A DNA stretch of 64,000 nucleotides from Burkholderiaceae bacterium (GTDB lineage Bacteria; Pseudomonadota; Gammaproteobacteria; Burkholderiales; Burkholderiaceae_C). Below the pieces are notes generated by a model. That model saw nothing but the letters and a program-made list of their open reading frames with translations. It searched no databases and was not told the origin of the DNA. A program made the translations under genes and the position numbers. The DNA lies in contig CAJYPV010000027.1 in NCBI GenBank assembly GCA_913776825.1, forward strand, positions 248,001 to 312,000, in the 5' to 3' direction. This document shows, in pieces, positions 34,678 through 64,000 of this stretch. Every line of letters begins with the position of its first letter. Positions within the stretch are counted from its first letter, which is position 1.

Positions 34678-35466
34678 TCAGAAGAAGGTGGACAGCCCCA
34701 GCAGCGCGAGCAGCGTGCCGAGTTCCACCACCTGCTGCGTCGCGCCCAGCGTGTCGCCGGTATAGCCGCCGAGGCGGCGTTCCAGCATCGATTGCAGATA
34801 GAAGGTCAGCCCGACCGCGGTGAGTGCGCCGCCGATGAGCAGTGGCACCTCGTCCGGCATCAGCCAGGCAGCGGCGGCGCTCGCCACCACGGCCAGGCCG
34901 AGCGCCACGGCCACGCCTGCAGCGCCGACCTGGGTGGCCAAGGGTTTGGCCTTGGCATGGTCGGCATCGCCGGCGTAGCGCATCGCATGCATCAGCCAGA
35001 CCGGTGCCGCGCGTGACACCACATGCGACCAGATGACCGCCATCCATGCGAGCGCGGGATCGGTGTCCCACAGGCCGAGCAGCGTGGCGGCCTTCAAGCC
35101 CAGCATCAGGATCAGGCCCAGTGCGCCGTAGCTGCCGATGCGCGAGTCCTTCATGATCGCCAGCGACTTCTCGCGGCTCACCGCGCCGCCGAGACCATCG
35201 CAGCTGTCGGCCAGGCCGTCCTCATGGAAGCCGCCGGTCAGCCACACGCTGGCGACCATCGCCAGGCCGATCGCCACGGTCGGCGGAAAGGCGAAGGAAG
35301 CCACCCACCACACCAGCGCCGAGAAGCCGCCCACTACCGCGCCCACCAGCGGGAAATAACGAGCGCTCTGGTTGAGCCAGTCCGGTTGGAAGCCCACCCA
35401 ACGCGGCACGGGCACGCGAGTGAAGAACTGCAAGGCGATGAAGAACAGGCGGAGGTGATGCAACAT
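34678..35466 (-). CDS. cobS: Adenosylcobinamide-GDP ribazoletransferase (cobalamin synthase)
   Basis: A 262-residue inner-membrane enzyme that joins GDP-cobinamide to alpha-ribazole. It starts with LFFIALQFFTRVPVP, followed by the metal-binding acidic motif GGFHEDGLADSCDGLGG and several membrane helices, then LGGYTGDTLGATQQ near the end. The start at 35466 is chosen over the in-frame ATG at 35535 since conservation begins here. It is first gene of a cobS-cobC pair separated from cobT/cobQ by inserted DNA. Confidence 0.9.
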   Translation of the reverse strand: MLHHLRLFFIALQFFTRVPVPRWVGFQPDWLNQSARYFPLVGAVVGGFSALVWWVASFAFPPTVAIGLAMVASVWLTGGFHEDGLADSCDGLGGAVSREKSLAIMKDSRIGSYGALGLILMLGLKAATLLGLWDTDPALAWMAVIWSHVVSRAAPVWLMHAMRYAGDADHAKAKPLATQVGAAGVAVALGLAVVASAAAAWLMPDEVPLLIGGALTAVGLTFYLQSMLERRLGGYTGDTLGATQQVVELGTLLALLGLSTFF

Positions 35467-35650
35467 GGCGTGGACCGGCGGATCGATCCCAAAGAAACAG
35501 AAGAAACGTCGGCGGGCTGACCGTGCCAGGGCCACGGCGGTGGCGATCAGCGCAACCCGCTCGATGCCTTGGCCAGCGCTCCAGCCTCAGGCACGGCGGC
35601 CGATACCGGCCATCCGCGCGAACGACGGGCGCGATGATACGGGCGCCGTC

Positions 35651-37879: not shown

Positions 37880-39100
37880 ATGCTCGCCACCGTCCTGACC
37901 CAGCGCTTCTTCATCCTCAAGGACACGCAGTTCCGTGCGCTGTTCCTGCGCATGCTGTGCAACCGTTTGGTCGACGGCATGGTGTATGTCGTCACCGCCT
38001 GGATGCTGCTCCGCATGACCGGTCATGCCGGCTCGGTGGCCCTGCAGTTGACCCTCACTTTGCTGCCCAGCGCCTTGCTGTCGCCGGTCATCGGCACCGT
38101 CACCGACCGCTTCAGCCGCAGGAATCTGGTGGTTCTCGCCGATGTGTTCCAGGGGACGCTGATTGCCTTCACCGCGCTGATGCTGGCGCTGTCCGTGCAG
38201 GCGCCGATCTATCTGTACGCGATGACGCTGGCGGTGGGCTTGTCGAGCCTGCTGCATTCGGTCGCGGCGCGGGCGCTGCTGCGGGAGCTGGTCAGCAAGG
38301 AGGGTTTGCTCTCCGCCAGCTCCACCATCTCGATCGCCAATCAGACCGGCGGCTTGTTCGGTCCCATCCTCGGCGGCCTGCTGGCCTATCAGCTGGGCGA
38401 GGTGTCGGTGCTGGCCATCGCGGCTGGATTGGCGGTGGTGGGCGGTCTGAATCTGCTGCAGGTGCAGTCGCGTGCACCGCATGGCGGCGCGGGGCCTTCC
38501 GGTTTGTCGATGACGGCGGAGTACCTCGCCGCCTGCCGTTTGCTGCGCGATGACGAGCGGGTGCGTCGGCTGTTCGTCGGCTGCTCGCTGTTCTACATCT
38601 CGCTGCCGCTGCTGAATTTTCTGCTGCCCTTGCTGACGATGAAGACCTTCGGCCTGTCGGTGCAGAGCTTCGGCGTGATCGATGCGATGTTCGGCATCGG
38701 CGGCATCGCGGCCGGCGTCTTCCTGCATGCGCTGGAGGAACGCTTCGGTCATCAGCCGATGATCGTCGGGGGCGTGGTGCTGTATGGCCTGGCGATTGCG
38801 TTGTTGCCTGCCAGCGCCTTCCAGCCGTGGCTGGTCGCCATCTACCTGTTGATCGGTTTCGCCTGCCACAGCGGTGTGGGCCTGATGAGCGAGTTGCAGC
38901 GAGAGATTCCGTCCGCCATGCAGGGCCGCGTGTTGTCGATGTTCAGCACCTGCACCGCGTTGATGGCGACGGTCACGGTCCAGGTGCTGGGCGCGGTCGG
39001 CGGCCCGACCACCGTGATCACCGCCTATGTCGTGTATGGGCTGATGCTGGTCGGATTCGGTCTGATCTTCCTCAGACGCTGGATGCGAGCGCCTGCCTGA
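37880..39100 (+). CDS. Major facilitator superfamily transporter (EntS-like)
   Basis: A 406-residue, 11-12 helix MFS protein. The cytoplasmic loop after helix 2 carries GTVTDRFSRRNLV, a form of the MFS DRxxRR signature. The general pattern is that of the DHA3/EntS exporters that export siderophores or macrolides. It lies 334 nt upstream of, and on the same strand as, the seven-gene biosynthetic operon, so export of that product is a reasonable guess. Substrate unproven. Confidence 0.8.
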   Translation: MLATVLTQRFFILKDTQFRALFLRMLCNRLVDGMVYVVTAWMLLRMTGHAGSVALQLTLTLLPSALLSPVIGTVTDRFSRRNLVVLADVFQGTLIAFTALMLALSVQAPIYLYAMTLAVGLSSLLHSVAARALLRELVSKEGLLSASSTISIANQTGGLFGPILGGLLAYQLGEVSVLAIAAGLAVVGGLNLLQVQSRAPHGGAGPSGLSMTAEYLAACRLLRDDERVRRLFVGCSLFYISLPLLNFLLPLLTMKTFGLSVQSFGVIDAMFGIGGIAAGVFLHALEERFGHQPMIVGGVVLYGLAIALLPASAFQPWLVAIYLLIGFACHSGVGLMSELQREIPSAMQGRVLSMFSTCTALMATVTVQVLGAVGGPTTVITAYVVYGLMLVGFGLIFLRRWMRAPA

Positions 39101-39434: not shown

Positions 39435-40442
39435 TTGTCGATTCACATCTATGACCCGACGCTGCGCGACGGGAACCATGCGATCGGGCACCAGCTGTCC
39501 ACCCGCGACATCGAGTCCTATTGCCGCGCCGTCGACGGCAGCGGTCTGTGGTGCATCGAGGTCGGTCACGGCAACGGCCTGGGCGCATCCTCGCTGCAGC
39601 TGGGACTGGCACGTCACAGCGACCGGGAGTTGCTGGAATGCGCCCGCCAGCATGTCAGCCAATCGCTGCTGGGCGTCCATCTGATTCCCGGCTTCGCCAA
39701 GATCTCGGACATCCGGACGGCGGTGGAGATCGGCGTCGACGTCATTCGTCTGGCCTCGCATTGCACCGAGGCGGACCTGACCGAAAGCTATTTCGACTAT
39801 GCCCGAGGCCTCGGCAAGCAGGTCCATGGCGTCTTGATGATGACCCACATGGCCAGCGCCGAGCAGTTGCTGGAGCAGGCCGCCAAGCAGGTGAGCTACG
39901 GCGCCAGTGCCATCACGCTGATGGATTCCGCCGGTCACTACGACCCGCGCAGCGCGACCGAGAAGATCGGTCTGCTGGTGCGTCATCTGGGCGTGCCGGT
40001 CGGCTTCCACGCCCACAACAACCTCGGCCTGGCGGTGGCCAACTCGCTGGCCGCGGCGCAGGCCGGCGCCACCATCCTCGATGGCACCTTGCGTGGCTTC
40101 GGTGCTGGCGCCGGCAACACCCAGCTCGAGGTGATGTGCGCGGTGCTGGAGCGCTATGACTTCGAGACCGGCGTCGACCTGTTCCAGCTCTGCGCTGCCA
40201 TCGACAGCCTCAGCGACATCCCACCGGTGTCCAAGCCGACCTTGATCGGCACCTCCAACCTGATCAGCGGCGTGTACGGCGTGTGCGCCGGATTCGAGAA
40301 GCATGTGGCCCGCGCGGCCCAGACCTTCGGCGTGGCGCCCCGGCTGATCTGGAAGGAACTGGCGCGGGTGAATGCCGTCGCCGGCCAGGAAGACTTGATC
40401 ATCGAAGTGGCCAACCGGCTGCGGAAAGAGGCGGTGGCCTGA
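39435..40442 (+). CDS. 4-hydroxy-2-oxovalerate aldolase-like enzyme (DmpG/MhpE type)
   Basis: A 335-residue HMGL-like TIM barrel. DPTLRDGNHA (metal Asp and Arg), EVGHGNGLGASS, and GFHAHNNLGLAVAN (metal His) match DmpG/MhpE, as does the C-terminal communication domain. In catabolism it splits 4-hydroxy-2-oxovalerate to pyruvate and acetaldehyde; it is reversible. It starts with TTG at 39435 with GGGGAG 6 nt upstream. It is followed 1 nt later by the dehydrogenase. The usual meta-cleavage genes are missing and amide-forming enzymes follow instead, so a biosynthetic direction is likely. Confidence 0.9.
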   Translation: MSIHIYDPTLRDGNHAIGHQLSTRDIESYCRAVDGSGLWCIEVGHGNGLGASSLQLGLARHSDRELLECARQHVSQSLLGVHLIPGFAKISDIRTAVEIGVDVIRLASHCTEADLTESYFDYARGLGKQVHGVLMMTHMASAEQLLEQAAKQVSYGASAITLMDSAGHYDPRSATEKIGLLVRHLGVPVGFHAHNNLGLAVANSLAAAQAGATILDGTLRGFGAGAGNTQLEVMCAVLERYDFETGVDLFQLCAAIDSLSDIPPVSKPTLIGTSNLISGVYGVCAGFEKHVARAAQTFGVAPRLIWKELARVNAVAGQEDLIIEVANRLRKEAVA

Positions 40443-40443
40443 C

Positions 40444-41355
40444 ATGCTGAACGTCGCGATTCTCGGCAGCGGCAACATCGGCTGCGACATCCTGTGCAAG
40501 GTGCAGCGGTCGCCCCAGCTGGACTGCGTGCTCTTCGCCGGCCGCAATGGCCACTCGTCCGGCCTCGCCTTCGCGGCGGAGCGGCAGGTGCCGGTCAGCG
40601 CGGGCGGACTGGAGGCGCTCATGCAGCGCGTCGATGACTTCGACCTGGTCTTCGATGCCACCTCGGCCGATGCCCACCTGCAGCTCGCCGAGGCGCTGGC
40701 CCCGCACCGCAAGCCGATCATCAACCTCACGCCCGCGCATCTGGGCGAGTTGTGCGTGCCCCTGCTCAACGGCGACCGCATGCACCGCGAGACCAACATC
40801 AACATGATCACCTGCGGCGGTCAGGCCTCGCTGCCGATCGTGATGGCGGTGTGCGCGGTCGTGCCCAGCGTGCGCTACATCGAGGTGGTGAGCGCCATCT
40901 CGGCCCGCAGCGCCGGCCCGGCGACGCGGCGCAATCTGGATCACTACATCACCACCACCGAGGCGGCGATCCGTCGCTTCTCCGGTTGCGAGCAGGTCAA
41001 GACCATCCTCAACATCAATCCGGCCAAGCCGGAGGTGTCGATGCAGACCGCGGTCTCGGTGCTGTTCGATTCGCTGGGCAGCCGCACCATGGGCGACCTG
41101 ATGGACCGGGTGCATCAGACGGTGCAGGAGGTGCGCGAGTACGTGCCCGGTTATGAGTTGATCGTCGAGCCTCGCCTGGACGCGGACCGCCTGTTCGTGA
41201 TGGTGCGCGTGGTCGGCCGCGGCGACTATCTGCCGCCGTATGCCGGCAACCTGGACATCATCACCTCGGCCGCCGTGAACATCGCCGAGCGTCTGGCGTC
41301 CCGAGGCGTGGGCCGGCGCGAAACGAATGCGGCCCGCGAGCTGGCGTGGCGGTGA
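40444..41355 (+). CDS. Acetaldehyde dehydrogenase, acylating (DmpF/MhpF type)
   Basis: A 303-residue NAD-dependent enzyme converting acetaldehyde and CoA to acetyl-CoA and back. N-terminal GSGNIG nucleotide site, PIINLTPA, and the catalytic Cys124 in MITCGGQAS are those of DmpF. It normally forms a complex with the aldolase and channels acetaldehyde. Here run in reverse it could feed acetyl-CoA-derived acetaldehyde to the aldolase. Its stop overlaps the next gene. Confidence 0.9.
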   Translation: MLNVAILGSGNIGCDILCKVQRSPQLDCVLFAGRNGHSSGLAFAAERQVPVSAGGLEALMQRVDDFDLVFDATSADAHLQLAEALAPHRKPIINLTPAHLGELCVPLLNGDRMHRETNINMITCGGQASLPIVMAVCAVVPSVRYIEVVSAISARSAGPATRRNLDHYITTTEAAIRRFSGCEQVKTILNINPAKPEVSMQTAVSVLFDSLGSRTMGDLMDRVHQTVQEVREYVPGYELIVEPRLDADRLFVMVRVVGRGDYLPPYAGNLDIITSAAVNIAERLASRGVGRRETNAARELAWR

Positions 41356-42650
41356 ACACGATGCCTCGGCTGGCCCCGCTCCATCGCGATGCGCGCTTCT
41401 GTCCCATCCTCGATGTGGTGGCCCAGGTGCGCCAGTTGCAGGCGCGGGGCGTCGAGCTGATCGATCTCTCGGTCGGCACGCCCAACTTCCTGCCGGCCGC
41501 GCATGTCTATGCGCAGGCGCAGGCGGCGCTGGCGGACGATCGGGGCGTGTACGGCAGCAGCCGGGGGCATGCGGGGCTGGTCGAGGCCTATCTGCATTAC
41601 CTGTCCGGTCAGGGCCTGCATCTGCATGAAGAGCGCCACGTCGTCACCGGTCTCGGCGCCAAGCATCTGCTGCATTCGGTCTTCGGCGTCATCCTGGAGC
41701 CGGGCGACGAAGTGGTGATTCCCACGCCGTGCTGGCCGACCTACTTCGACATCGTCCAGCAGGCCGGCGGCGTCGTCGTGATGGTGCCGGGCACGGTCGA
41801 GACCGACTACAAGATCAGCCCCGACGCCCTGGCCGCCGCGCTGACGCCACGCACCAAAGCGGTGTTGCTGAACAACCCGTCCAATCCGACGGGCGCGGCC
41901 TATGACCGGGACGCACTGCATGAGCTCGCGGCGGTGCTGCGCGGCAGTGATGCCTGGATCATCAGTGACGACGTCTACAGCCGTTTCGTCTCGCCCTCGA
42001 TGGACTTCTGCCACCTGCTGCAGGTGGCGCCGGACCTGGTTGATCGGGTGGTCAAGATCGATTCGGTCTCCAAGCTCTACGGCATGCCGGGCTGGCGCGT
42101 CGGCATGATGGCGGCGCCGGTGTCGCTGGCCGAGGCGGTCGTGCGGCTCAACAGCAACTCGATCTCCAGCGTGCCGGAAGTGGCCGCCGCGGCCGCCGCG
42201 GCGGCGCTGCGGGGCGATCAGTCGTTCTCGCTCGCGATGGTCGAGCAGTACCGCGCGCGGCGCGCCCTGGCGCACGGGCTGCTGGCCTCCAGTCCTCGGC
42301 TGCGCTGTCCGCTGCCGGATGGCGCGTTCTATCTGTTCCCCGATGTCTCGGCCTGTTTCGGACTGCACGTGCCGGCCCATCGCGCGACGACGGCTGCGCC
42401 CGTGCACGCTGCCAATGACAGTCCGGCATCGGTCGATATCCCGCACCCACCGCGCGCGCAGAGCGAGCCGATCCAGGTCCGCGATGACCTGCATCTCACC
42501 CAACTGCTGCTGAATCAGGCGCATGTGGCGGTGGTGCCGGGCCGCTATTTCGGCGAGCCGCGCAGCCTGCGCATCACCTGTTCCGCCGATGCCGACACCT
42601 TGGCGGAAGGCGTCGCGCGCATCCGGTCCTTCATCGATTCGCTGATCTGA
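41352..42650 (+). CDS. PLP-dependent class I/II aminotransferase
   Basis: A 432-residue fold type I aminotransferase. Features: LSVGTPNFLPAAHVY, YGSSRGHAGLVEAY, NNPSNPTGAAY, SDDVYSRF, and the PLP Lys in DSVSKLYGMPGWRVG (about residue 241). About 35 residues of Ala/Pro/His-rich insertion occur before the small-domain strand QLLLNQAHVAVVPG. The GTG at 41352 gives the common GTGA overlap with the dehydrogenase; ATG 41361 is an alternative. In context it could aminate 4-hydroxy-2-oxopentanoate. The amino donor is unknown. Confidence 0.85.
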   Translation: MNTMPRLAPLHRDARFCPILDVVAQVRQLQARGVELIDLSVGTPNFLPAAHVYAQAQAALADDRGVYGSSRGHAGLVEAYLHYLSGQGLHLHEERHVVTGLGAKHLLHSVFGVILEPGDEVVIPTPCWPTYFDIVQQAGGVVVMVPGTVETDYKISPDALAAALTPRTKAVLLNNPSNPTGAAYDRDALHELAAVLRGSDAWIISDDVYSRFVSPSMDFCHLLQVAPDLVDRVVKIDSVSKLYGMPGWRVGMMAAPVSLAEAVVRLNSNSISSVPEVAAAAAAAALRGDQSFSLAMVEQYRARRALAHGLLASSPRLRCPLPDGAFYLFPDVSACFGLHVPAHRATTAAPVHAANDSPASVDIPHPPRAQSEPIQVRDDLHLTQLLLNQAHVAVVPGRYFGEPRSLRITCSADADTLAEGVARIRSFIDSLI

Positions 42651-42727
42651 ATGCGCGACGTCGACCTGCCCCTTCCCGCCGCTCTTCGTTCGACGAGGTC
42701 GATCACGACCCGCCAGCGGCCTCAACC

Positions 42728-45334
42728 ATGACGGCTGCGTCGCGACGCGATGCGGTCTGCCCAGCTTCCTCTCAACCCGCCACCACCATGACTGCCACCT
42801 CAACCGCCCCGAAACCTCTCCATGTCCTGATCGTCGGTGGCCGCGACCACACGGTGAAGAAGGTGCAGGCCCTGGGCCTGCGCTTCGCGATGATGCAATC
42901 GTCGGACCTGGTCAGCGAGCTGCAGTTCAAGCACGCCAGTCGCTATCTGGTCACCGACTACAAAGACCTGGAAGAGGTGGTCGAGACCGCCAAGCTCTGG
43001 CATGCATTGGACCCGTTCGATGCGGTGGTGTCCTTCGCCGAATACGGCCTGCATGCGGCGTCGGTGTGCGCCAATGTCCTGGGCCTGCCGGGCGGCAATG
43101 AGCAGGCGGTGCTGATGACGCGCGACAAGTTCCGCATGCGTCAGCTGTTGCGTGAGCATCAGCTCAGCGCGGTCGAGTACGCCCTGTGCGAGAGCGAGGC
43201 CGATGTGGCCGCCTTCTTCGATCGACTGGGCGGCCGGCCGCTGGTGCTCAAGCCGTTCGATGGCGGCGGCAGCATCGGCATCTCGTATGTGGATGCGGCG
43301 GACCGCATCGCCGACGCCTGGGCCTGGACCCGCAATGCCTGCAAGGGCCGCATCCTGGCCGAGGAGTTTCTCGAGGGCCAGGAATACAGCGTCGAGTCCA
43401 TCTCCCGCAATGGCCGGCATGAGGTGGTGATGATCACCGAGAAGCTCACCACGCAGGCGCCGCACTTCATCGAGCTGGGCCACCAGATGCCCGCGCGTCT
43501 CACGCCGGAGGTGCATCAGGCGGTGGTGGACACCGTCACCCGGCTGCTGGATGTGGTGGAGCAACAGACCGCGCCGGCCCACACCGAGATCCGGGTCGGT
43601 CCGCAGGGGGTGAAGATCATCGAGTCGCAGACCCGCATCGGCGGCGACCAGATCTGGGAGATGACCGAGCTGGTCAGCGGGGTGGATCTGATGTCCGAGA
43701 CCCTGTGCGAGCTGTTGAGCCTGCCCATGCCGGCGCGCCGTCCGGTGGCGGCGGCGGCCGCGATTCGATTCTTCGCTCGGGAGAACGAGCAGGTCGAGGC
43801 GGTCGATGGCATCGCGCAGGCGGCTGCCGGCGAAGGTGTCTTCCGCCTGAGCTGCAGCCTGAAGGCCGGCCAGCGCCTGGGCAAGCTCACCTGGTCTGAA
43901 TCTCGCCAGGGTTATGCCTTGTGCCTGGGCGACACGGTGGATCAGGCGGTCGCCCGCGCCGAGTCGGCGGTGGCGGCGGTGCGCGTCACCGGCACGCCGT
44001 TCGAGCCGCTCAAACTGGCGCTGGCCTTCCCGATCGGCCCCTTGAGCCTGGGCCGCTATCTGGCCATCTGCCAGCGGCAGGGCTGGGAGGCGGTCGTCGT
44101 CGGCGCGGAGAGCTTCCGTGAGCAGGCCCGCGCCGCCGGCGCCGACCTGATCGTGGCCGACATCGCCGACTTCACCACCGCCGATGCCGAGGCCACCACC
44201 GCGCACATCGCCTCGCTGGTGGGCCGCCTGCGCGGCGAGCGCGTGCAGGGCGTGGTGCCGGGGGGCGAGTATTCGGTGGCGGTGTCCGACCGCATCGCGG
44301 CGGGCCTGGGGCTGCCGCACAACCCGCTCGAGCAGGGTCTGGCGTTCCGCAACAAGGCCAGCATGCGCGCGCGTTTCGCCGCCTTCGATGTGCCTCAGCC
44401 GCAAGTGCTGGCGCGCTTCAACACGCTGGAGGAGGCGCAGGCCTTCGACTGGCGCAGCGTGCGCTTCCCGGTGATCGTCAAGCCGATCGACATGGCCTCC
44501 AGCATGTTCGTGCGGGCCTGCCACACCGAGGCGGAGGCCCGGGAGCTGCTGGTCGCGATGTTCGGCTTTGTCGACAGCGGCGCGGAAGGCCTGCCGTTCT
44601 CGCGTGGTGCCTTGGTCGAGGAGCTGGCGGTCGGTCCCGAGTACAGCGCCGAATGCCTGGTGGAGAACGGCCAGCTGAAGGACTTCTTCCTCACCACCAA
44701 GTTCGTCTCGCCATGGCCCTATTGCAATGAGGTCGGCCATGTGAGCGGCGATCAGCTGGAGCCAGACCTGGACGCGGCCTTGCGGCAAGCCATCGCCGGC
44801 ATCATCGCGGCCTGGGGCGTGACGCATACCGTCATGCATGTCGAGTTCAAGGTCACGCCGCATGGTCTGCGGGTGATCGAAGCCGGCAACCGCGTCGCCG
44901 GCGACCGCATCTCCGAGCTGGTCGAGCTGCGCTACGGCGTCTCGCTGGAAGAGTGCTTCTGCCGTCTGCGCGCCCAGGTGCCGCTGCGACTGGCACCGAC
45001 CCGCGACAACCCGTCGGCGCCGTTTGTGGGCGTGAAGTTCTATTTCGACGCGGAGCGCGCGCCGACGCCGTCGCTGACGATCGTGCGTGAAGAGGTCTGG
45101 GCGCCGCGCGTCGCGATGACGCCGATGGTGCACGACATCAAACAGCGCCTCGGCTTCCGCATCGTGACCTCGGCGGACCGGGCGGCGCTGGAGTCGCTGA
45201 TTGCGATCGATGGCATCGGCAGCGCGGGCGGTGGCGCCTCGTCCTCGGCGCCGTCGCCGAACGCGGCCCACCTGACGCCCACCGTCAACACGCCGAGCGC
45301 GGTCGCGCCGGCCCGCGCGCTGAGCGCCTCCTGA
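42728..45334 (+). CDS. Tandem ATP-grasp ligase (two ATP-grasp modules)
   Basis: An 868-residue protein with two ATP-grasp units in a row. Module 1 spans about residues 30-350: LHVLIVGGRD start, RPLVLKPFDGGGSIGIS loop, and metal residues in TEIRVGPQGVKIIESQTRIGGDQI. Module 2 spans about 430-790: FPVIVKPIDMASSMFV loop, HVEFKVTPHGLRVIEAGNRVAGDRI metal residues. Such ligases activate a carboxylate as acyl phosphate and join an amine, as in dipeptide or carnosine synthases. Two modules in one chain could make two amide bonds. An ATG at 42788 could be the true start. Ala/Pro/Thr-rich tail. Confidence 0.85.
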   Translation: MTAASRRDAVCPASSQPATTMTATSTAPKPLHVLIVGGRDHTVKKVQALGLRFAMMQSSDLVSELQFKHASRYLVTDYKDLEEVVETAKLWHALDPFDAVVSFAEYGLHAASVCANVLGLPGGNEQAVLMTRDKFRMRQLLREHQLSAVEYALCESEADVAAFFDRLGGRPLVLKPFDGGGSIGISYVDAADRIADAWAWTRNACKGRILAEEFLEGQEYSVESISRNGRHEVVMITEKLTTQAPHFIELGHQMPARLTPEVHQAVVDTVTRLLDVVEQQTAPAHTEIRVGPQGVKIIESQTRIGGDQIWEMTELVSGVDLMSETLCELLSLPMPARRPVAAAAAIRFFARENEQVEAVDGIAQAAAGEGVFRLSCSLKAGQRLGKLTWSESRQGYALCLGDTVDQAVARAESAVAAVRVTGTPFEPLKLALAFPIGPLSLGRYLAICQRQGWEAVVVGAESFREQARAAGADLIVADIADFTTADAEATTAHIASLVGRLRGERVQGVVPGGEYSVAVSDRIAAGLGLPHNPLEQGLAFRNKASMRARFAAFDVPQPQVLARFNTLEEAQAFDWRSVRFPVIVKPIDMASSMFVRACHTEAEARELLVAMFGFVDSGAEGLPFSRGALVEELAVGPEYSAECLVENGQLKDFFLTTKFVSPWPYCNEVGHVSGDQLEPDLDAALRQAIAGIIAAWGVTHTVMHVEFKVTPHGLRVIEAGNRVAGDRISELVELRYGVSLEECFCRLRAQVPLRLAPTRDNPSAPFVGVKFYFDAERAPTPSLTIVREEVWAPRVAMTPMVHDIKQRLGFRIVTSADRAALESLIAIDGIGSAGGGASSSAPSPNAAHLTPTVNTPSAVAPARALSAS

Positions 45335-45351
45335 GCACCGAGGACCGAGTC

Positions 45352-46677
45352 ATGAGCCTGCTTCTGTTTTGCCCGCCGAAGATCCTGCTGCAGCACAGCG
45401 CGATGCAGTGGGCCGATGCCCTGGGCCCCGATGCGCGGGTGTTGACCTGCGCCAGCCAGCGCGAGTCGATCGAGCGTCATCTGGCCGGCCGCGTGCCTTG
45501 CCATTTCTTCGAGCGCTTCAATGACAACGCCGCGGTGGAGCTGCGCGCGCTGGAGATCGCCCGCACCATGCCCGGCCCGCGTGCCGTGGGCCTCGCGGAA
45601 ATCGACATGCTGCGTGCAGCGCGCGTCAACGACCGGCTGGGACTGACCAGCGGCGCCGAAGACGCGATGCTCTATTACCGCGACAAATACCTGATGAAGT
45701 GCCGCGCGCGTGACGCCGGCCTGCCGGTCGCGGCGATGGCGGTGGTGCACAGCGCGATGGATGTGCGCCGCTTCATCGATCGGCACGGCTGGCCGGTGGT
45801 GGTGAAGCCGCGCGATGGTCGAGGCTCCAACAACGTCGTCGTGCTGCGTGATGAGTCCGCGCTCGATGCCTGGCTGGATCGGCAGCCGGCGTCGACGCTC
45901 TACAACACGATGATCGAGGCCTTTGTCGCGGGCGACCACTACATCGTCAACGGCCTGTATGTCCGCGGTCAGCCGATCGTGATCTCGCCGGTGCGGGTGA
46001 TGACCTCGGCGCTCGACTTCCTGGGCGGCGCCTGCCATGACCTGCACATGATGGATGAGTCCAATCCGGTGCGTCAGTCGCTGATCGATTACTCGCGGCG
46101 GCTGGTCGAGCAGGTGCTGCCCTCCGAGCCCACCATGCTGTTCCATCTGGAGGCCTTCGTCGACCGCAGCGGCCGCATCGTCCTGTGCGAGATCGCCTCG
46201 CGCCTGGGCGGCGTCTTCTTCAACCAGGAGCTGGAAGAAGCCTGGGGCATCGATGTGCGCATGAGCTACCTGCGCGCCCTGCGCGACCCGTCCTTCAGCC
46301 CGCCGGTGCGCACGCAGCCGGAGCGGCGCGTCGGCCACATCAGCATCCCGCCGGTGCCCGGCCTGCTGCGGGAGGCGCCCGTCGGCTGCCCGCTGCCGTT
46401 CGTGCGGCGCTACAAGCTCTACGGCCAGCCAGGCCGGGCCTACAGCGGCATGGCCTTCACCAATTCGGAGGTGGTGAGCGCGATCGTCGAGGGCGAGGAC
46501 GAAGCCCAGATCCGCGAGCGGCTGCACGACTTCCAGCAGTGGTTCGTCGCGCACACCCAGTGGGACACCGGCAGCACGTCGGCGTCGGCTGTCCACGGTG
46601 ACGCTCGGTCCGACGGTGCCGGCGACCTGTCGTCTCGGGGCCGGCATCCCGGGGCCGAGTCCATCGCGGCGCAGTGA
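45352..46677 (+). CDS. ATP-grasp carboxylate-amine ligase
   Basis: A 441-residue single ATP-grasp enzyme. The lid and nucleotide loop is GWPVVVKPRDGRGSNNVVV, and metal ligands lie in LFHLEAFVDRSGRIVLCEIASRLGG. It differs from the two modules next door, so it probably joins another substrate. The last 45 residues are Ser/Gly/Asp-rich. It is 17 nt after the tandem ligase, and its stop overlaps the GTG of the porin gene. Confidence 0.85.
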   Translation: MSLLLFCPPKILLQHSAMQWADALGPDARVLTCASQRESIERHLAGRVPCHFFERFNDNAAVELRALEIARTMPGPRAVGLAEIDMLRAARVNDRLGLTSGAEDAMLYYRDKYLMKCRARDAGLPVAAMAVVHSAMDVRRFIDRHGWPVVVKPRDGRGSNNVVVLRDESALDAWLDRQPASTLYNTMIEAFVAGDHYIVNGLYVRGQPIVISPVRVMTSALDFLGGACHDLHMMDESNPVRQSLIDYSRRLVEQVLPSEPTMLFHLEAFVDRSGRIVLCEIASRLGGVFFNQELEEAWGIDVRMSYLRALRDPSFSPPVRTQPERRVGHISIPPVPGLLREAPVGCPLPFVRRYKLYGQPGRAYSGMAFTNSEVVSAIVEGEDEAQIRERLHDFQQWFVAHTQWDTGSTSASAVHGDARSDGAGDLSSRGRHPGAESIAAQ

Positions 46678-47834
46678 AGCGCGTGTCGATTCGCACGGGG
46701 CGCTGGCGTCGGTCAACCGTCGGTCGCTGGCCGCTCGCCGCGCCCGTCGTCCTCGCGCTGGCGACGGGCGGCGTGGCCGGCGGCGGATCGATGCCGGCGA
46801 TGGCGGCCACCGATTCGCTGGTGCTGTCGGGCGAGCTCAATGTGCAGATGAACCGGCTGTCGTACGGCGATGCGGCCGGGCGCACGCGGGTGCTGCATCG
46901 GTTGGACAGCTCCGCCTCCAACATGCGGTTCAAGGGCACGGAGTCGCTGGGCGGTGACCTGAGCGCCTCGTTCTACATCTCGGCGGGTCTGCGCACCGAC
47001 ACCGGCACGGGCAGCGTCTGCAACCGGGAATGTTTCGTGCAACTGGCCGGCGGTGCGGGATCGATCAAGCTCGGGCGGGTGCTGCCGATTTACGACGATG
47101 TCTCGTTGCCCTGGTACTTCATCGAGATCCAGGGCAATCACAACCCGATTGCCTTGTGGGCCAACTGCGGCAACGGCGCCGGCATGGATCGAGGCTGCAT
47201 GGATTCATTCATCACTGCCGTGCGCTACGACACGCCGAATTGGAATGGCGTGTCCGGCAGCGTGTCGGTGGCGGATCTGTCGACCGATCTGCAGCGGGAG
47301 AAGGGCAGCTCGCACGCCTATTCGGGCGGCATGCAGTATCGCCAGGGGGAGTGGTATCTCGGCATCGCCGCTCAGAAGCAGGTGGACACCCGCTATGCCG
47401 GCGCGCGAGACAACGGGCTGACGCTGTCGATGGAATGGAAGGGGCCGGTGAGCATCGGGCTGGGCCTGGAGCGGCTGTCCTACAGCGTGGCCAACGGCGG
47501 CACGCTGCGTCGGGACTATGTCGGTCTGCTGCTCAGCCACACCTGGAGCACCCAGACGGTGTGGGCCAACGCCGGCCGCGCTTTCAGCGGGCGCGGGTCT
47601 GCGGGACCGGACGCGGTGGTGAACAACGTGCGGCGCCAGCCGGAATCGGGCGCGAGCATGTTCTCGCTCGGCTACACGCTGCGGCTGTCCAAGCTGACCA
47701 AGCTGTACGGCTTCCACAACACCATCGTCAACGACGCCCGCTCACGCTATTCCTTCGATACCTCGACATCGTCTTCCCTCGGCACCGGTCGACGCGTCTC
47801 GTCCACCGTGGTCGGGGTGTCCAAGAAATTCTGA
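46674..47834 (+). CDS. Gram-negative porin (Neisseria/Burkholderiales type)
   Basis: A 386-residue outer-membrane beta-barrel. The signal peptide is long and basic at its start, cleaved near AMA (about residue 45). The mature part begins TDSLVLSGELNVQMNRL, contains MRFKGTESLGGDLSA and GSIKLGRVL, and ends with VGVSKKF with terminal Phe, as in outer-membrane porins. It starts with GTG overlapping the ligase stop (GTGA). A porin embedded within a biosynthetic operon suggests product release or uptake; not demonstrated. Confidence 0.85.
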   Translation: MKRVSIRTGRWRRSTVGRWPLAAPVVLALATGGVAGGGSMPAMAATDSLVLSGELNVQMNRLSYGDAAGRTRVLHRLDSSASNMRFKGTESLGGDLSASFYISAGLRTDTGTGSVCNRECFVQLAGGAGSIKLGRVLPIYDDVSLPWYFIEIQGNHNPIALWANCGNGAGMDRGCMDSFITAVRYDTPNWNGVSGSVSVADLSTDLQREKGSSHAYSGGMQYRQGEWYLGIAAQKQVDTRYAGARDNGLTLSMEWKGPVSIGLGLERLSYSVANGGTLRRDYVGLLLSHTWSTQTVWANAGRAFSGRGSAGPDAVVNNVRRQPESGASMFSLGYTLRLSKLTKLYGFHNTIVNDARSRYSFDTSTSSSLGTGRRVSSTVVGVSKKF

Positions 47835-47923
47835 TGACCGCGCGATTCGATTCGGGGATGGCCCCTGGGACCGCGCCTCACCGCACGCCTTGCATGTCTG
47901 CAACACCTCACAGGGGAGCGACC

Positions 47924-49660
47924 TTGTCCAGAGCCTATACGGTGGCCCTCGTTGGCGGGGGCTCCATTGCCACCAGTGTGCTGGCCCAACTGGCCCGGCG
48001 TATCGACACCTTGCCGGCGCTGCATCTGCTGCAGTTCGAGCCGGCCGGCCGACTTGGCGTCGGTCAGCCGTATGGCGCGGACCTGGAGGCGGTGTTGCTC
48101 AACACGCCGGCAGTCGCGCTGTCCGTGCTGCCGCAGGAACCCACGCATTTCACCGATTGGCTGCAGGCCCGCGCCGAGCGCGATCCCGCGCAGGCGCGCT
48201 GGCTCAGCGGGCCGGTGCCGCGCGCGGTGTACGGCGATTACCTGGCGGACACCTATCGCCAGGCGGTCGCGACGTTGGCCGCGCGGCAGATTCCGCTCTC
48301 GCTGATCGGTGAGGCGGTGGTGGACCTGGTCCCCACCGATTTCGGCGCCACCGTCCTGCACACCGAACGCGGGCTTCGGTTCACTGCCGATGAGGTGCTG
48401 CTCTGCACCGGCAATCTGCCGTCGTCCCAATACCGCGAGCTGGAGTCGCATCCGGGCTATCTGTCCTCGCCGTATCCATGCCGGGAGCTGGTGTCGGCGC
48501 TGTCCGGCGCTGATCATGTCGGCATCGCCGGCACCAGCCTCAGCGCGCTGGATGCGCTGGTGTCGCTGCATGACAGCGGCTTCCGAGGCCAGATCACCGC
48601 CTTCTCGCGGCGCGGCCATCTGCCCTCCGTGCGCAGCGCCGAAGGCTCGCCGGTGACGCTGCGGTGGTTCACCCGTGAAGGCATCGAGGCACTGCCGCGG
48701 GACGCGCAGGGCAGCGTCGCGCTGGACGACCTGGTCCGGCTGCTTCGGCAGGACATCGAGGACCGCACCGGCGAGCCCTTCGATCTGCAGGAAGCGATGG
48801 CGCTGGGCAGCACCCCGGTGGCGCATCTGGAACACGAGATCGAGATCGCGCGACGCGGCGAGCGGCATTGGCAATCGGTGCTCTATCAAACCAATGAGGT
48901 GATCGATCACGCCTGGCACCGGCTCGCGCTGGCGGACCGTCGGCGATTCGTCACCCAATACCGGCATCTCTTCCTGGTGCGGCGCATTGCCGTGCCGCTG
49001 GTGAATGCGGAGAAGGTGCTCGCGCTGCTGCGGCGTGGGCAGCTGGAAGTGCGCGCGGAGGTGAGCGCGGTCACCGCGACCCGGGACGGCTTCGACATCG
49101 CCTTCGCCGCGCGGGAGGGGCAGGGCCGGTCCGCCGTCGTGCATGTGGATCGACTGGTCAATGCCACCGGCATGTGCGTGGACGTCACCCGCTCGGCGGA
49201 TCCGCTGATGCGTCAGATGCTGGCGCGCGGGGTGGCGACGCCCAGCGAGTTCGGCGGCGTCGATCAGCGCTTCGAGGACCTGCGCTTGATCGGCCGCCCG
49301 CAGACGTCTCAGGGCGACGCCAACGTCTCGGCCTCGGGTGGTCTGCCGAGTCGATTCGCGCCGGTGGTGTCGTTGCTGGGTTCACTCAGCATGGGCACCT
49401 GTTTCTGGACCAATGCGATGAGCGTGAATGCCCGTCTCGCCGATCGCGTGGTGGACGCGATGCTGCAGCGCGCCAGCTCCGCATTGAAAAGCCACATCGT
49501 CGCGTCGCCCGTCGGGACACGTCCACCCATTTCGACGAACGCGTTCGTCGCGGCTGCGGGTTGGCCGGCCCCCGTCGTCTCGCCAGGCTTTGCCGCCTTC
49601 GCGGGGGCTCGGGAAGCGGCGGCGCTGGCATCCGTGAACAAAGGCCAGCTTTCGGGTTGA
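47924..49660 (+). CDS. FAD/NAD(P)-binding oxidoreductase (HpyO-like)
   Basis: A 578-residue flavoprotein. The N-terminus YTVALVGGGSIATSVLAQL is a dinucleotide fold, with YDYL-like region GDYLADTYRQAV, LLCTGNLPSS and the second site HVGIAGTSLSALDAL, as in NAD_binding_9 (HpyO-like) proteins. Relatives appear in biosynthetic clusters, yet the reaction is rarely known. TTG at 47924 with GGGGAG 5 nt upstream is preferred; an ATG at 47834 overlaps the porin stop (TGATG) and would add 30 low-complexity residues. The last 80 residues are Ala/Val-rich. Confidence 0.75.
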   Translation: MSRAYTVALVGGGSIATSVLAQLARRIDTLPALHLLQFEPAGRLGVGQPYGADLEAVLLNTPAVALSVLPQEPTHFTDWLQARAERDPAQARWLSGPVPRAVYGDYLADTYRQAVATLAARQIPLSLIGEAVVDLVPTDFGATVLHTERGLRFTADEVLLCTGNLPSSQYRELESHPGYLSSPYPCRELVSALSGADHVGIAGTSLSALDALVSLHDSGFRGQITAFSRRGHLPSVRSAEGSPVTLRWFTREGIEALPRDAQGSVALDDLVRLLRQDIEDRTGEPFDLQEAMALGSTPVAHLEHEIEIARRGERHWQSVLYQTNEVIDHAWHRLALADRRRFVTQYRHLFLVRRIAVPLVNAEKVLALLRRGQLEVRAEVSAVTATRDGFDIAFAAREGQGRSAVVHVDRLVNATGMCVDVTRSADPLMRQMLARGVATPSEFGGVDQRFEDLRLIGRPQTSQGDANVSASGGLPSRFAPVVSLLGSLSMGTCFWTNAMSVNARLADRVVDAMLQRASSALKSHIVASPVGTRPPISTNAFVAAAGWPAPVVSPGFAAFAGAREAAALASVNKGQLSG

Positions 49661-54046: not shown

Positions 54047-54301
54047 GCGGCCTGCGGGCCGGAATCGCCCGTATCACCCGCATCACCCGCCCTAGAGTCA
54101 TTCCTCCAAGATGCGCATTCCTTTGCCTTGGGGGTAACGGGTCTTTCCCGCTGGCCCTATGCTTGCAGCCTATCCGGGATCCCCGGCCGAAGCAGCGTAC
54201 TTCGTCCGGTGCGGTACGCCCGACATCTGCAGAACTGACAGCGCTCGGCGCGCGCTGACGGAGGACCGGTCCGTCCACGACGGACTCAGAGAGGGATGGA
54301 G

Positions 54302-55015
54302 ATGAATTGCTGGCAGGTGCAACAGTTGCGGCTGGTGAGTTCCGCCGCAGACACCGACGAGACGTTCCAGACGATTCTTGCGGAAGTGAACCGACTCGGC
54401 TTCCAGTACTGCTCATTCGGAATGAAGGCACCGGTACCATTGATTGCGCCCCGGGTGCTTTGGTGCAGCAACTATCCGGAAGCGTGGAAAGCCCGCTATG
54501 AACAAGGGGACTTCCTGCGCCGCGATCCCACCGTGGCGCATGCGATCGTCAGCGATGAGCCCATCCTCTGGAGCGATGCGCTGTTCGCCACCTGCCCCGA
54601 ATTGCGATTGGAAGCGCGCGCACATGGGCTGGCGCATGGGTTGGCGCAACCGCGGCGCGATTCGCGCGGCATGGTGAGCTTGCTGACCTGCGCGCGCACC
54701 GATCCGCCGATCTGCGACGAAGAACTGCAGGCCAAGGCCGAGCGTCTGCAATGGCTGTCTTATCTCTGCCATGAAGCGATGCTCAAGCACTGGGATTCAT
54801 CGCTGCGGGACAAAGGTGATCTGGACCTCTCCGCGCGCGAGCGCGAAGTGCTGCGCTGGTCCTGCGACGGCAAGACATCCGCCGACATGGCCCAGATCAT
54901 CGGCGTGTCCGAAGCGACGGTGAACTTCCACATGCGCAATGCCTGCCAGAAGCTGGGCACCGGCAACAAGACCGCGGCGGCTGTGATGGCCGCCTTGATG
55001 GGCCTGTTGAGCTGA
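54302..55015 (+). CDS. LuxR-type acyl-homoserine-lactone receptor/regulator
   Basis: A 237-residue regulator. Autoinducer-site residues can be placed: W62, Y66, D75, P76 and W90 in the segment from YPEAWKARYEQGDF to ILWSD. The C-terminal helix-turn-helix has LSAREREVLRWSCDGKTSADMAQIIGVSEATVNFHMRNA. The start at 54302 has GAGAGGG 6 nt upstream and is preferred over ATG 54296. It is convergent with the luxI-type gene. A partial lux-like half-site AACTGACAG lies at 54233-54241. Confidence 0.9.
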   Translation: MNCWQVQQLRLVSSAADTDETFQTILAEVNRLGFQYCSFGMKAPVPLIAPRVLWCSNYPEAWKARYEQGDFLRRDPTVAHAIVSDEPILWSDALFATCPELRLEARAHGLAHGLAQPRRDSRGMVSLLTCARTDPPICDEELQAKAERLQWLSYLCHEAMLKHWDSSLRDKGDLDLSAREREVLRWSCDGKTSADMAQIIGVSEATVNFHMRNACQKLGTGNKTAAAVMAALMGLLS

Positions 55016-55137
55016 TTCGTCACGGCGACTGGCGAGGCTGGCGCAGGCAGCGCGCGGCTGATCTCATCGACCTGCGTTGACGCTCGCCGGCCTTGCATGA
55101 GCACGTTGCGATTGCGTCGTGCCCTGTCGGAGTTCAC

Positions 55138-55953
55138 TCAGACGGCCACCGCGCGCGCATTGGCGCCGTGGGGCGAGACCGCGCAGGCGCCGCGCGAATC
55201 GACGACGCGCCATCCAGGCAGGCTCATCGAATGGGCGCCGTTGGCGTTGCCTGCCGGCATCGCGGTGCCTGGGCGGAGCAGCCCCGCCATCGCGGCAATC
55301 GGATCGGTCGTCGACGCGCCCGAACTCGTTGCGATGGCCGGGCAGGCGGTCGAGTCGCGATCGGCCATGGCCAGAGCAGGATCGAGCGCCTCCAGCGTCT
55401 GACGCGAGCAATGAATCCGCGCGGCCACGAGCAGACCGGCGCTGCTGCGCACGGGCGGCCCGAGGCGTTCGATGTCCACGCCCCAACGCTGCGCCAGACG
55501 TTCGACCGCCACGGTGGTGCAACACACCAGTTGCTCCCCAGCCTGGGCCATCACGAAGCGCACCGCCTCCAGCAGCACCCGCTTGCCGATGCGGGTCTGC
55601 GCCTTCGCATCCGAGGCGCTGCCGGGCTGCGCCGATTGGCCGGCGGCAAACCGCGACAGCTCCCAGACCTGCGGCGACTGCGGTGCCACGCCATTGCCGA
55701 TCAGGTGCGAGAAGTGCTTCTGCAACAGGTAAGGCCGCAGCGTCGGCAGCAAGCGCGCATAACCGACCACTGCGTCGCCATCGAATGCGGCCAGATGGGT
55801 GGCGCCGTCGGCATCGAACTCATCCTGTTCATGCCCGGGCTCGCAGGGCAGGTCCCATTGCAACGACTCAATGAAAACACGGTGACGATACCGGGCAATG
55901 GCGCCACGGGTGGCGGTGGAAACAGCATGGTCGTCGATCAATTCAATGCGCAT
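55138..55953 (-). CDS. Acyl-homoserine-lactone synthase (LuxI type)
   Basis: A 271-residue synthase. The invariant residues are R25, F27, W33, D44, D47, R67, F81, E98 and R101, within YRHRVFIESLQWDLP, EQDEFD, GYARLLPT and VWELSRFA. It makes an acyl-homoserine lactone from SAM and an acyl carrier; acyl chain unknown. It has about 65 extra Ala/Ser/Gly-rich residues at the C-terminus over the usual 200-215. GGAG lies 6 nt before the start, and a lux box is centred about 76 nt upstream. Confidence 0.9.
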   Translation of the reverse strand: MRIELIDDHAVSTATRGAIARYRHRVFIESLQWDLPCEPGHEQDEFDADGATHLAAFDGDAVVGYARLLPTLRPYLLQKHFSHLIGNGVAPQSPQVWELSRFAAGQSAQPGSASDAKAQTRIGKRVLLEAVRFVMAQAGEQLVCCTTVAVERLAQRWGVDIERLGPPVRSSAGLLVAARIHCSRQTLEALDPALAMADRDSTACPAIATSSGASTTDPIAAMAGLLRPGTAMPAGNANGAHSMSLPGWRVVDSRGACAVSPHGANARAVAV

Positions 55954-56019
55954 TCGATTCTCCGTGGGGCTCTGTGTTCTGGGCAGCGCGCCATTACATG
56001 AGCGGCTCGGAGGGCGATC

Positions 56020-56039
56020 AACTGACAGATCTGTTAAGC
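56020..56039 (-). promoter_or_regulatory. lux box for the luxI-type gene
   Basis: AACTGACAGATCTGTTAAGC has a perfect ACAGATCTGT core. On the minus strand TGTAAT starts 32 nt past the centre, the spacing of a lux box at about -42 overlapping the -35 site of the luxI-type promoter. It also precedes the divergent RsaM-like gene by about 35-54 nt and could act there too. Confidence 0.7.
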
Positions 56040-56073
56040 GATGGGATGTCGGGAATCGATAAACTCTTTCGCA

Positions 56074-56514
56074 ATGAAAGAGACTGACCGATCAGCCCCT
56101 TTTGACTTCTATGTGCGGCTGCACGAAGCCGCGCTGTCGCGCATGGCCTGGATCCATCTGGAGTCCGGCGTGGACCTGCTGGACGAACGCGATGACAGCC
56201 CTTGCGATCGATTGCTGGAAGGGGCTCGGCTCAGTGGCGCCATTCGCGGCTACACCGAATGGGTGAGCGAGTCACTCCCGCTGATCTCGTTCGGATGGGA
56301 TTGGTCGATGACGCTGAGCGGAACGCTGCAATTGAATCGGCATTCGATTCGAACCAACGTGATGCTGCTCGATGAATGCGGGCGCGATCTGGGGCGCTCC
56401 GCTTCCGTGGCGGGTGTGGTGCGGCTGATCGATCAGCGGCAGTGGCAGGAGGCGGTGCTCTCGGCCATGCACCACCACTCGGCGCCGCGGGGCGTGCCGA
56501 TGTGGCCGATGTGA
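56074..56514 (+). CDS. RsaM/TofM-like quorum-sensing modulator (DUF4902)
   Basis: A 146-residue protein thought to belong to the RsaM/TofM (DUF4902) family: WIHLESGVDLLDERD, GYTEWVS, SFGWDWSM, IRTNVMLLDECGRDLG and a Trp/Gln-rich end. RsaM proteins tune AHL production in Burkholderia and related species and lie beside luxI genes; they have no known DNA-binding domain. It is divergent from the luxI-type gene with the lux box between. The start at 56074 is chosen since the lux box adjoins the alternative ATG at 56041. The family call is from memory of the pattern. Confidence 0.65.
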   Translation: MKETDRSAPFDFYVRLHEAALSRMAWIHLESGVDLLDERDDSPCDRLLEGARLSGAIRGYTEWVSESLPLISFGWDWSMTLSGTLQLNRHSIRTNVMLLDECGRDLGRSASVAGVVRLIDQRQWQEAVLSAMHHHSAPRGVPMWPM

Positions 56515-63020: not shown

Positions 63021-64000
63021 TCACTCGTGGGCGCCCGGCTTCAGCAGATCCATGAGCACACCGGGCGGCACGTGCTGATCGAGGTAGTCGGCCAGGTCAT
63101 CGAAGACACGCTCCAACGGACGCACGGGCCGACCGAACAGGGCCGACAGCGCGCACTCGTCCTCGAACAGGCCGTGCAGGTAATGGCCCAGGACCGCGCC
63201 GTGCTGCCAGCCCAACGGCTGGCCTTGCGCATCAAACAGGACGGGCGTGACCGCAGGCAGCGCGGGATGCTGCGCGGTGCGACCATGGTGAATTTCGTAG
63301 CCGCGCGCCGTCAGCCCCGACAGGCCGGACCAGGGCGCCGCCAGCGAGGGGGCGAAGCGGACCTGCGCCTCGCGCAGCAGCTTGTCGCGCTCGAATTGCG
63401 TGACCAGCGGCAGCAGGCCGAGTCCGGGCGCATTGCCATCCATGCCGTGCGGGTCAATCAAGGCCTCGCCCAGCATCTGCAGCCCGCCGCAGATGCCCAG
63501 CACCGGCCGACCGGCTGCGGCATGGGCGGTGATGACCGCGTCCAGCTTCTGCGCGCGCAGCCAGGCCAGATCCGATGCGACGGCCTTGGAGCCGGGCAGG
63601 ATGATCCAGTCAACGCCGTCCAGCTCGGCCGGCGTGCGGGCCCAACTGAGCCGAACGCCGTCCAGGCTGCGCAGCGGCTGGAATTCATCGAGATTGGACA
63701 GCCGCGGATAGGCCACGACGGCGACGCGAAGCGTGGTCATGCCGCTGCCGGTTGGACGGTCGTCGAAGACGCCGTCTTCTTCCGGCAGCCCATGGCCGCG
63801 CCACATCGGCAAGGTGGCGAGCGTGGGCACGCCGGTGAGCGATTGCAGCATCTCCGGGCCGGGCGACAGCAGCGAGGCATCACCGCGGAAGCGATTCAGC
63901 ACGAAGCCGCGGATCAGCGCGCGCTCGTCGGGCGGCAGCAGTTGATGGGTGCCGAACAGATGCGCGAAGGCGCCGCCGCGATCGATGTCGGTGACCAGCA
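63021..64000 (-). CDS. cobQ: Cobyric acid synthase, C-terminal part (cut by the window end)
   Basis: The frame is open to the window edge, so the gene continues beyond 64000 and only about 326 residues are seen. VTDIDRGGAFAHLFGT at the edge and GFVLNRFRGD belong to the CobQ N-terminal half. The glutamine amidotransferase domain has catalytic Cys in GICGGLQMLGE and His in GHYLHGLFED. It amidates adenosylcobyrinic acid a,c-diamide to cobyric acid. First known gene of the cobQ-cobT pair. Confidence 0.9.
   Translation of the reverse strand, partial: LVTDIDRGGAFAHLFGTHQLLPPDERALIRGFVLNRFRGDASLLSPGPEMLQSLTGVPTLATLPMWRGHGLPEEDGVFDDRPTGSGMTTLRVAVVAYPRLSNLDEFQPLRSLDGVRLSWARTPAELDGVDWIILPGSKAVASDLAWLRAQKLDAVITAHAAAGRPVLGICGGLQMLGEALIDPHGMDGNAPGLGLLPLVTQFERDKLLREAQVRFAPSLAAPWSGLSGLTARGYEIHHGRTAQHPALPAVTPVLFDAQGQPLGWQHGAVLGHYLHGLFEDECALSALFGRPVRPLERVFDDLADYLDQHVPPGVLMDLLKPGAHE

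Follow-up and report, generated by a model that had tools for sequence, protein, structure and literature searches.

The stretch analysed here, referred to as the window, is 64,000 nucleotides long and comes from a Burkholderiaceae bacterium (GCA_913776825.1, contig CAJYPV010000027.1, positions 248,001 to 312,000). At positions 39435-49660 it carries an operon of seven genes, all on the plus strand, with a transporter gene ahead of them; we refer to these eight genes as the block. The seven genes encode a DmpG/BphI-type class II aldolase with a communication domain (ALD, 39435..40442, TTG start; HMGL-like and DmpG_comm), an acylating aldehyde dehydrogenase (ADH, 40444..41355; AcetDehyd-dimer), an aspartate-aminotransferase-like pyridoxal phosphate (PLP) enzyme (AT, 41346..42650; Aminotran_1_2, with the Lys in SVSKLYG), a double ATP-grasp ligase (DGR, 42728..45334, alternative start 42788; ATP-grasp_4 in two stretches), a single ATP-grasp ligase (SGR, 45352..46677; assigned by family profile), a Gram-negative porin (POR, 46674..47834; Porin_4, E 4e-24) and a PF13454 flavoprotein that may resemble N-hydroxylases (FAD, 47924..49660; Pfam NAD_binding_9). 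The gaps between them, from ALD to FAD, are 1, -10, 77, 17, -4 and 89 bases. The preceding gene, for a major facilitator superfamily (MFS) transporter (37880..39100, plus strand; Pfam MFS_1, E 6e-30), ends 334 bases before the start of ALD; the transporter is a probable exporter of the product. An initial annotation made from the sequence had placed the operon at these coordinates, and its gene calls and plus-strand gene row were borne out by Pfam, NCBIfam and the coordinates. It had also described the operon as free of nonribosomal peptide synthetase (NRPS) and polyketide synthase (PKS) genes, and none was found among the block genes.

The block is not a product of chance, because all eight genes are syntenic in G1200, a genome of a sister species in the same genus, at protein identities of 79-97% (94% for MFS and 86% for POR) and with dN/dS values of 0.04-0.23 (MFS 0.08, ALD 0.04, ADH 0.12, AT 0.17, DGR 0.12, SGR 0.18, POR 0.14 and FAD 0.23). 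G1200 also keeps, in the same order, a LuxR gene, a LuxI gene, an alpha/beta hydrolase gene and a DUF4902 gene; the window genes at 49778 and 50635 were unmatched in its stretch. ADH was found at 91-100% identity in two of the 16 genomes of the genus, the window's own included. Two other genomes of the genus carry an ADH copy of 49-52% identity adjoining an aldolase of 51-52%, with no ligase match within 20 kb. The operon looks biosynthetic rather than catabolic, since the eight genes are syntenic in the sister species under purifying selection and their core recurs elsewhere (see below). A role in anti-phage defence was considered and set aside, as a PADLOC scan of four of the eight block proteins gave zero matches.

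ALD and ADH exceeded the NCBIfam equivalog cut-offs of TIGR03217 (4-hydroxy-2-oxovalerate aldolase, with the DmpG communication domain) and TIGR03215 (acylating acetaldehyde dehydrogenase), respectively; the window genome contains two further ALD matches, both partial and weak. ADH has Cys124 in the motif CGG and the nucleotide loop GSGNIG. We presume that this Cys and Rossmann loop, and the Lys motif of AT, play the roles customary for such enzymes. The best solved relatives of AT were mostly aspartate aminotransferases, and its listed NCBIfam matches all fell below their cut-offs. In an aldolase tree of 39 rows, made by a quick method with no bootstrap, the eight operon aldolases formed one clade (SH-aLRT 100), with 12 rows of other or unknown context closer to it and 19 DmpG-like rows distant. 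The metal and catalytic residues of ALD are intact: the positions matching Arg17, Asp18, His21, His200 and His202 of DmpG, whose residues were taken from a separate alignment because DmpG itself was not a row, were kept in all 39 rows.

Two other active-site positions differed. In the window ALD, Leu-87 of BphI is replaced by His82 and Tyr-290 by Cys284, the numbering of BphI and DmpG being, we infer, offset by one. The Leu-87 position holds His in 8/8 operon rows and Leu (18/19) or Ile (1/19) in the DmpG-like rows; this His is not specific to the operon, as it also occurs in 8 of the 12 middle rows. The Tyr-290 position is Cys in all eight operon rows, Phe (11/12) or Val (1/12) in the middle rows and Tyr in all 19 DmpG-like rows. 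In BphI, the Y290F and Y290S variants lose stereocontrol at C4, and the L87N/Y290F and L87W/Y290F variants are active on the 4R but not the 4S enantiomer (PMC3962088). Because substitutions at these two positions alter C4 stereocontrol in BphI, it is reasonable to predict a different C4 outcome for the operon aldolases. The operon enzymes thus belong to the same families as DmpF/DmpG and BphI/BphJ and retain the communication domain, but the aldolases lie in a separate clade and have His and Cys in place of the stereocontrolling Leu-87 and Tyr-290 (PMC3962088).

The three ATP-grasp modules named in the initial annotation, two in DGR and one in SGR, all show the pattern H-x-E...E...R. We take this pattern to be the metal site of such modules. 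The N half of DGR resembles L-amino acid ligases and carries LAL_C2, and the C half is a second ATP-grasp; their best solved relatives were BL00235 (3vot) and 30vh, respectively. SGR scored 23.6 with ATP-grasp_4 against a Pfam cut-off of 27, and its NCBIfam matches were all below cut-offs. The SGR family profile nevertheless matched solved ATP-grasp enzymes, the best being the L-amino acid ligase 4wd3 (E 5e-20), presumably RizA of a rhizocticin producer. When DGR was used as the query against 399 genomes of the family, 168 were matched, mostly by generic ATP-grasp matches over part of the protein; SGR was therefore taken as the marker gene of the family.

Other ligase clusters came to light in these searches. 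A ligase on a Streptomyces hirsutus plasmid (55% identity to the N half of DGR) was rejected as a carrier because it belongs to a different cluster, in which the SGR query matched that ligase only, and weakly. This cluster (L034, 6573-17510) comprises a SidA-type monooxygenase, a tRNA-ligase-like protein, a cupin, an AMP-binding protein and this ATP-grasp ligase, and is reminiscent of hydrazine-type pathways of N-N bond formation. Two further Streptomyces plasmids (L125, 7303-14244; L049, 7593-13062) hold another three-ligase cluster, with two tandem ATP-grasp genes, a serine acetyltransferase, a cysteine synthase and a NikS-annotated ligase. In the same genus as the window, G127 has three successive ATP-grasp-ligase matches followed by an MFS match (L037, 11700-16640), distinct from the window operon.

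The flavoprotein was compared with solved structures by means of a five-row family profile, which matched 8cp2 in two collinear stretches with an overall E of 1e-6, the stretches being individually weak (i-E 0.055 and 0.35). The structure 8cp2 is an L-aspartate N-hydroxylase of nitrosuccinate pathways (PMC10404684). The window protein alone, as a phmmer query, gave no match of the 8cp2 type. N-oxygenation by FAD is thus a lead suggested by the family profile.

Outside the genus, SGR was rare. At E 1e-30 its profile found one of 300 genomes of the order (the window's own), three of 398 of the phylum (its own, G800 and one distant) and two of 149 genomes in the Phaeobacter family. The stricter E 1e-60 gave one of 198 genomes in the family of G750; in that of G966 it gave three of 198, including a distant one. 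The carriers on plasmids were Phaeobacter piscinae (five records), P. porticola (one) and Leisingera (four). A scan of contigs with DGR found no relative, and one with a two-row SGR alignment found three loci, in Pseudomonas sp. AL03, Yokenella regensburgei and Citrobacter werkmanii. The P. porticola record and G800, which share coordinates, were counted as one carrier, as were G1532 and the Yokenella contig. On the P. piscinae plasmid pP36_c, the order is SGR, FAD, an AbrB-type membrane protein, a stand-alone ligase of the DGR N-half type, ALD, ADH, AT and a divergent MFS gene, with identities to the window of 59% (SGR), 29% (FAD), none (AbrB), 40% (the DGR N half), 72% (ALD), 57% (ADH), 48% (AT) and 26% (MFS). 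The same seven genes are present in Leisingera M658, P. porticola and G1128, MFS being seen in G1128 only, and in Leisingera NJS201, where FAD and AbrB are each annotated as two pieces. Pseudomonas sp. AL03 has SGR, AbrB, ALD, ADH, AT and FAD. In a check from the aldolase side, 292 plasmid records were matched, and the ten with at least 60% identity were the same ten that carry SGR at 58% or more. The set foreseen in the initial annotation therefore recurs, clustered, in Pseudomonas sp. AL03 and on Phaeobacter/Leisingera plasmids; the genes were not scattered in the carriers found, and no known catabolic operon with the same set was met.

Within the genus, the block occupies a variable insertion site (36670-61960) beside cobalamin genes (CobS, 34678-35535; CobB/CobQ-like, 63021-63902). 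All ten other genus genomes fetched, which are ten of the 13 with a strong match to the DUF3369 regulator (15/16 matched overall), have CobS and this regulator at the site, and everything from MFS to DUF4902 was unmatched within 13-20 kb, two of the ten stretches ending at a contig end. In G127 (L137) about 140 bases separate the DUF3369 match from the match to the window sequence from 61.97 kb on, indicating that the block sits in a variable site, which spans some 25 kb in the window. Carriers are few and unevenly spread, a pattern like that of clusters that move horizontally, and the block is apparently mobile.

Taken together, we read the block as a mobile, NRPS-free peptide pathway that uses a gamma-hydroxy-alpha-amino acid, with a probability of roughly 60%. 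The substrate of ADH would be a common acyl-CoA, with acetyl-CoA the likeliest, and the aldehyde formed by its reduction would be channelled to ALD. There it would be added to pyruvate or 2-oxobutyrate as the 2-oxo acid partner, yielding a 4-hydroxy-2-oxo acid. AT would then transaminate this acid to the gamma-hydroxy-alpha-amino acid, 4-hydroxynorvaline by the pyruvate route or 4-hydroxyisoleucine by the 2-oxobutyrate route. SGR and the two DGR halves would join it to ordinary amino acids through up to three amide bonds, FAD would oxidise an amine or hydroxyl group, and MFS and the porin would export the peptide. The pathway is supported by the family assignments and intact catalytic residues, by the clustering of the core on alphaproteobacterial plasmids, in Pseudomonas sp. 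AL03 and in the window's genus, and by the separate clade of operon aldolases with Cys for the active-site Tyr. The sequences allow gene functions to be assigned at the level of families; the gamma-hydroxy amino acid is deduced from the chemistry and from the hydroxylase swap described below, and the peptide length, the FAD reaction, export and quorum control are surmised. A short modified peptide, the product proposed in the initial annotation, is accordingly a plausible prediction.

The gene block is of a known kind, the ATP-grasp peptide pathway; its head module is new, and the swap in supply is informative. No description of the gene set or its parts was found among the open-licence PMC papers listed, by title and the start of the abstract. 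If the proposed pathway is true, it would define small peptides, acting as antimetabolites or signals, as a family that is dispersed across Pseudomonadota and plasmid-borne in the Phaeobacter group, for which SGR together with an ALD having Cys at the BphI Tyr-290 position would be a marker, and its enzymes would be possible biocatalysts for stereodefined 4-hydroxy amino acids.

Evidence for the swap came from carriers in which SGR stands beside a dioxygenase of PF10014, the HilB/IDO family of amino-acid hydroxylases. The Yokenella row consists of a PF10014 dioxygenase, SGR (45%), FAD and AbrB; that of G1538 of PF10014, SGR and AbrB; and that of C. werkmanii of PF10014, an SGR interrupted by an in-frame stop, and AbrB. 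G1225 combines a WelO5/HilA-like dioxygenase (its HxD motif, read by eye, is HVD), PF10014, a ligase of the DGR N-half type (57%), SGR (39%) and FAD (32%). ALD, ADH and AT had no match in the stretches fetched from these four carriers. In an unrooted SGR tree, the 11 SGR proteins of both supply types formed one clade (100/99), with the aldol-type proteins as a clade inside it (96/96) and the hydroxylase-type proteins outside that subclade; G1225 drew a long-branch warning, and the position of L121 is uncertain. PF10014 enzymes act on free Leu, Ile or Thr and add a hydroxyl group at C4 (PMC3684760). Since the same ligase family stands beside either PF10014 or the aldol trio, we argue that both supply a gamma-hydroxy-alpha-amino acid, and on the simplest reading one ligase family receives the same class of building block from either of two supply modules. 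If true, the swap would show that, for one building block, aldol assembly has taken the place of C-H hydroxylation in nature. A more specific version is tentative and, to our judgement, rather doubtful: evolution would have exchanged the head end of one peptide pathway, so that SGR-type ligases and N-oxygenating flavoproteins receive an identical or closely related gamma-hydroxy amino acid in one of two ways. Either PF10014 would oxygenate an existing amino acid, or an aldolase of altered, possibly inverted, C4 outcome would build it from acetyl-CoA and a keto acid. The resulting peptides, containing N-oxygenated gamma-hydroxy amino acids, would form a new class, and in the window's genus they would be under quorum control.

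As a separate observation, the C. werkmanii locus (L052, 9995-11227), with its in-frame stop in SGR and no FAD match, is perhaps a decaying hydroxylase-type block.

Several points weigh against the proposed pathway. The sequence does not fix which acyl-CoA and which 2-oxo acid are used. The AlphaFold model of FAD, from a three-row alignment, had a mean pLDDT of only 51.7, the FAD identity between the window and other carriers is just 29-32%, and neither G1538 nor Citrobacter has a FAD match beside SGR. The C half of DGR and the porin were confined to the window's genus among the carriers read, POR having no match in the stretches compared outside it, and the stretch fetched from Pseudomonas sp. 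AL03 was without a DGR-type ligase match. Such differences between carriers mean that the product varies or that some genes are dispensable. Most carriers were found via SGR, which biases the survey towards seeing the genes together. The Yokenella PF10014 protein matched the HilB model, and the HilA-like protein of G1225 the HilA model, far below their cut-offs, and the PF10014 protein of G1225 matched none of the Hil models. The PF10014 substrates are therefore putative, and a difference in the amino acid used could lie behind the swap.

Rhizocticin is made by an aldol step, transamination and ATP-grasp ligation, and the initial annotation had likened the operon to its pathway. The likeness held for this logic, common to both, and was otherwise only partly apt. 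The phosphoenolpyruvate (PEP) mutase model TIGR02320 gave no match in the window genome (94.4% complete) at E 0.001; among 14 control genomes it matched six, none above the cut-off. A phosphonate pathway was rejected for want of this match, and no phosphonate is expected. Nikkomycin appears closer in logic: its set of acylating dehydrogenase, DmpG-like aldolase, aminotransferase and ATP-grasp ligase, in which NikA, NikB and NikS take part, is also present in the window block, and in its HPHT-peptidyl pathway a gamma-hydroxy amino acid is ligated by an ATP-grasp enzyme. The window block differs in having two more ATP-grasp modules and a flavoprotein. The structure of HPHT and the picolinate steps of nikkomycin biosynthesis have been described (PMC4021061); no nucleoside or picolinate genes were found among the eight block genes or the flanking genes scanned.

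Two further systems show parts of the proposed pathway. The Hil operon, known from Pantoea and Pseudomonas, combines a gamma-hydroxylated aliphatic amino acid, the PF13535 ATP-grasp ligase HilD and an MFS exporter, and its proposed product is a dipeptide antibiotic made with HilD (PMC3684760). The hydroxylase-type relatives share with it the PF10014 dioxygenases, plus a HilA-like protein in G1225. In contrast, the window block has no dioxygenase, its carbon skeleton being predicted to be built by aldol addition, and adds the N-hydroxylase-like flavoprotein; HilC reductase, HilR and HilP are not among its genes, and the tandem dioxygenases HilA and HilB are absent from it, with only a distant version in G1225. 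In phosphonoalamide biosynthesis (PnaA/PnaB/PnaC), a specialised aminotransferase, which the authors compare with aspartate aminotransferase, is followed by two ATP-grasp ligases that build di- and tripeptides, an NRPS-free peptide assembly (PMC11867202). These peptides carry a phosphonate headgroup, and the main text of that paper does not contain the word 'aldolase' (PMC11867202). Among NRPS-independent ATP-grasp peptide pathways, the window block has predicted enzymes for making a non-proteinogenic amino acid within the cluster.

The nikkomycin likeness allows an alternative, in which ADH acts on an aromatic or special acyl-CoA, ALD on 2-oxobutyrate, and SGR joins a nucleoside or other non-amino-acid partner. 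The enzyme kinds are those of NikA, NikB, the aminotransferase and NikS, and more distant SGR relatives are annotated 'NikS'. However, two NikS-annotated rows fell outside the SGR clade, the DGR halves resemble L-amino acid ligases, and neither an acyl-CoA ligase nor a nucleoside gene family occurs among the block genes and the scanned flanks; we consider this alternative unlikely.

A LuxR/LuxI pair lies 4.6 kb downstream of the block. The region 54296-56514 holds a LuxR-type autoinducer-binding regulator (54296..55015, plus strand; Autoind_bind and GerE), a convergent LuxI-type autoinducer synthase (55138..55953, minus strand; Autoind_synth, E 8e-22) and the DUF4902 gene, and accompanies the operon in both genus carriers, with identities to G1200 of 99% for LuxR and 63% for LuxI. 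Quorum control of the peptide pathway by this pair is plausible. The pair, and the strong conservation of LuxR in particular, would also suit a signal resembling acyl-homoserine lactones, in which the gamma-hydroxy amino acid forms a lactone, undergoes N-acylation or N-oxidation and is sensed by the nearby LuxR; for hydroxyisoleucines, a fate of this kind was put forward by Smirnov and colleagues (PMC3684760). We hold this to be quite unlikely, because three ligase modules fit a peptide better, LuxI is itself an ordinary signal source, and no annotated autoinducer synthase was found around the four Phaeobacter/Leisingera blocks read, for which the gene table is incomplete.

A catabolic operon, in which ALD and ADH cleave as in the meta-cleavage of aromatics and the ligases are passengers, would agree with the equivalog calls and the porin but is very unlikely from the neighbourhood, the tree and the residues, since the eight genes include no ring-cleavage, hydratase or hydrolase family, the genome has no catechol 2,3-dioxygenase above the cut-off (TIGR03211, the sole ring-cleavage model searched, gave one match below it over 43 model positions), the aldolases form a separate clade with an altered active site, and all ten plasmid records with an operon-type aldolase carry SGR.

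Pairs of aldolase and acylating dehydrogenase were also seen in Streptomyces and Kitasatospora (L109, 9453-15565; L110, 9506-15839; L111, 8173-15674). There they sit with FAH hydrolase, citrate-lyase-like aldolase, MaoC and GNAT genes, apparently a separate use of DmpFG enzymes.

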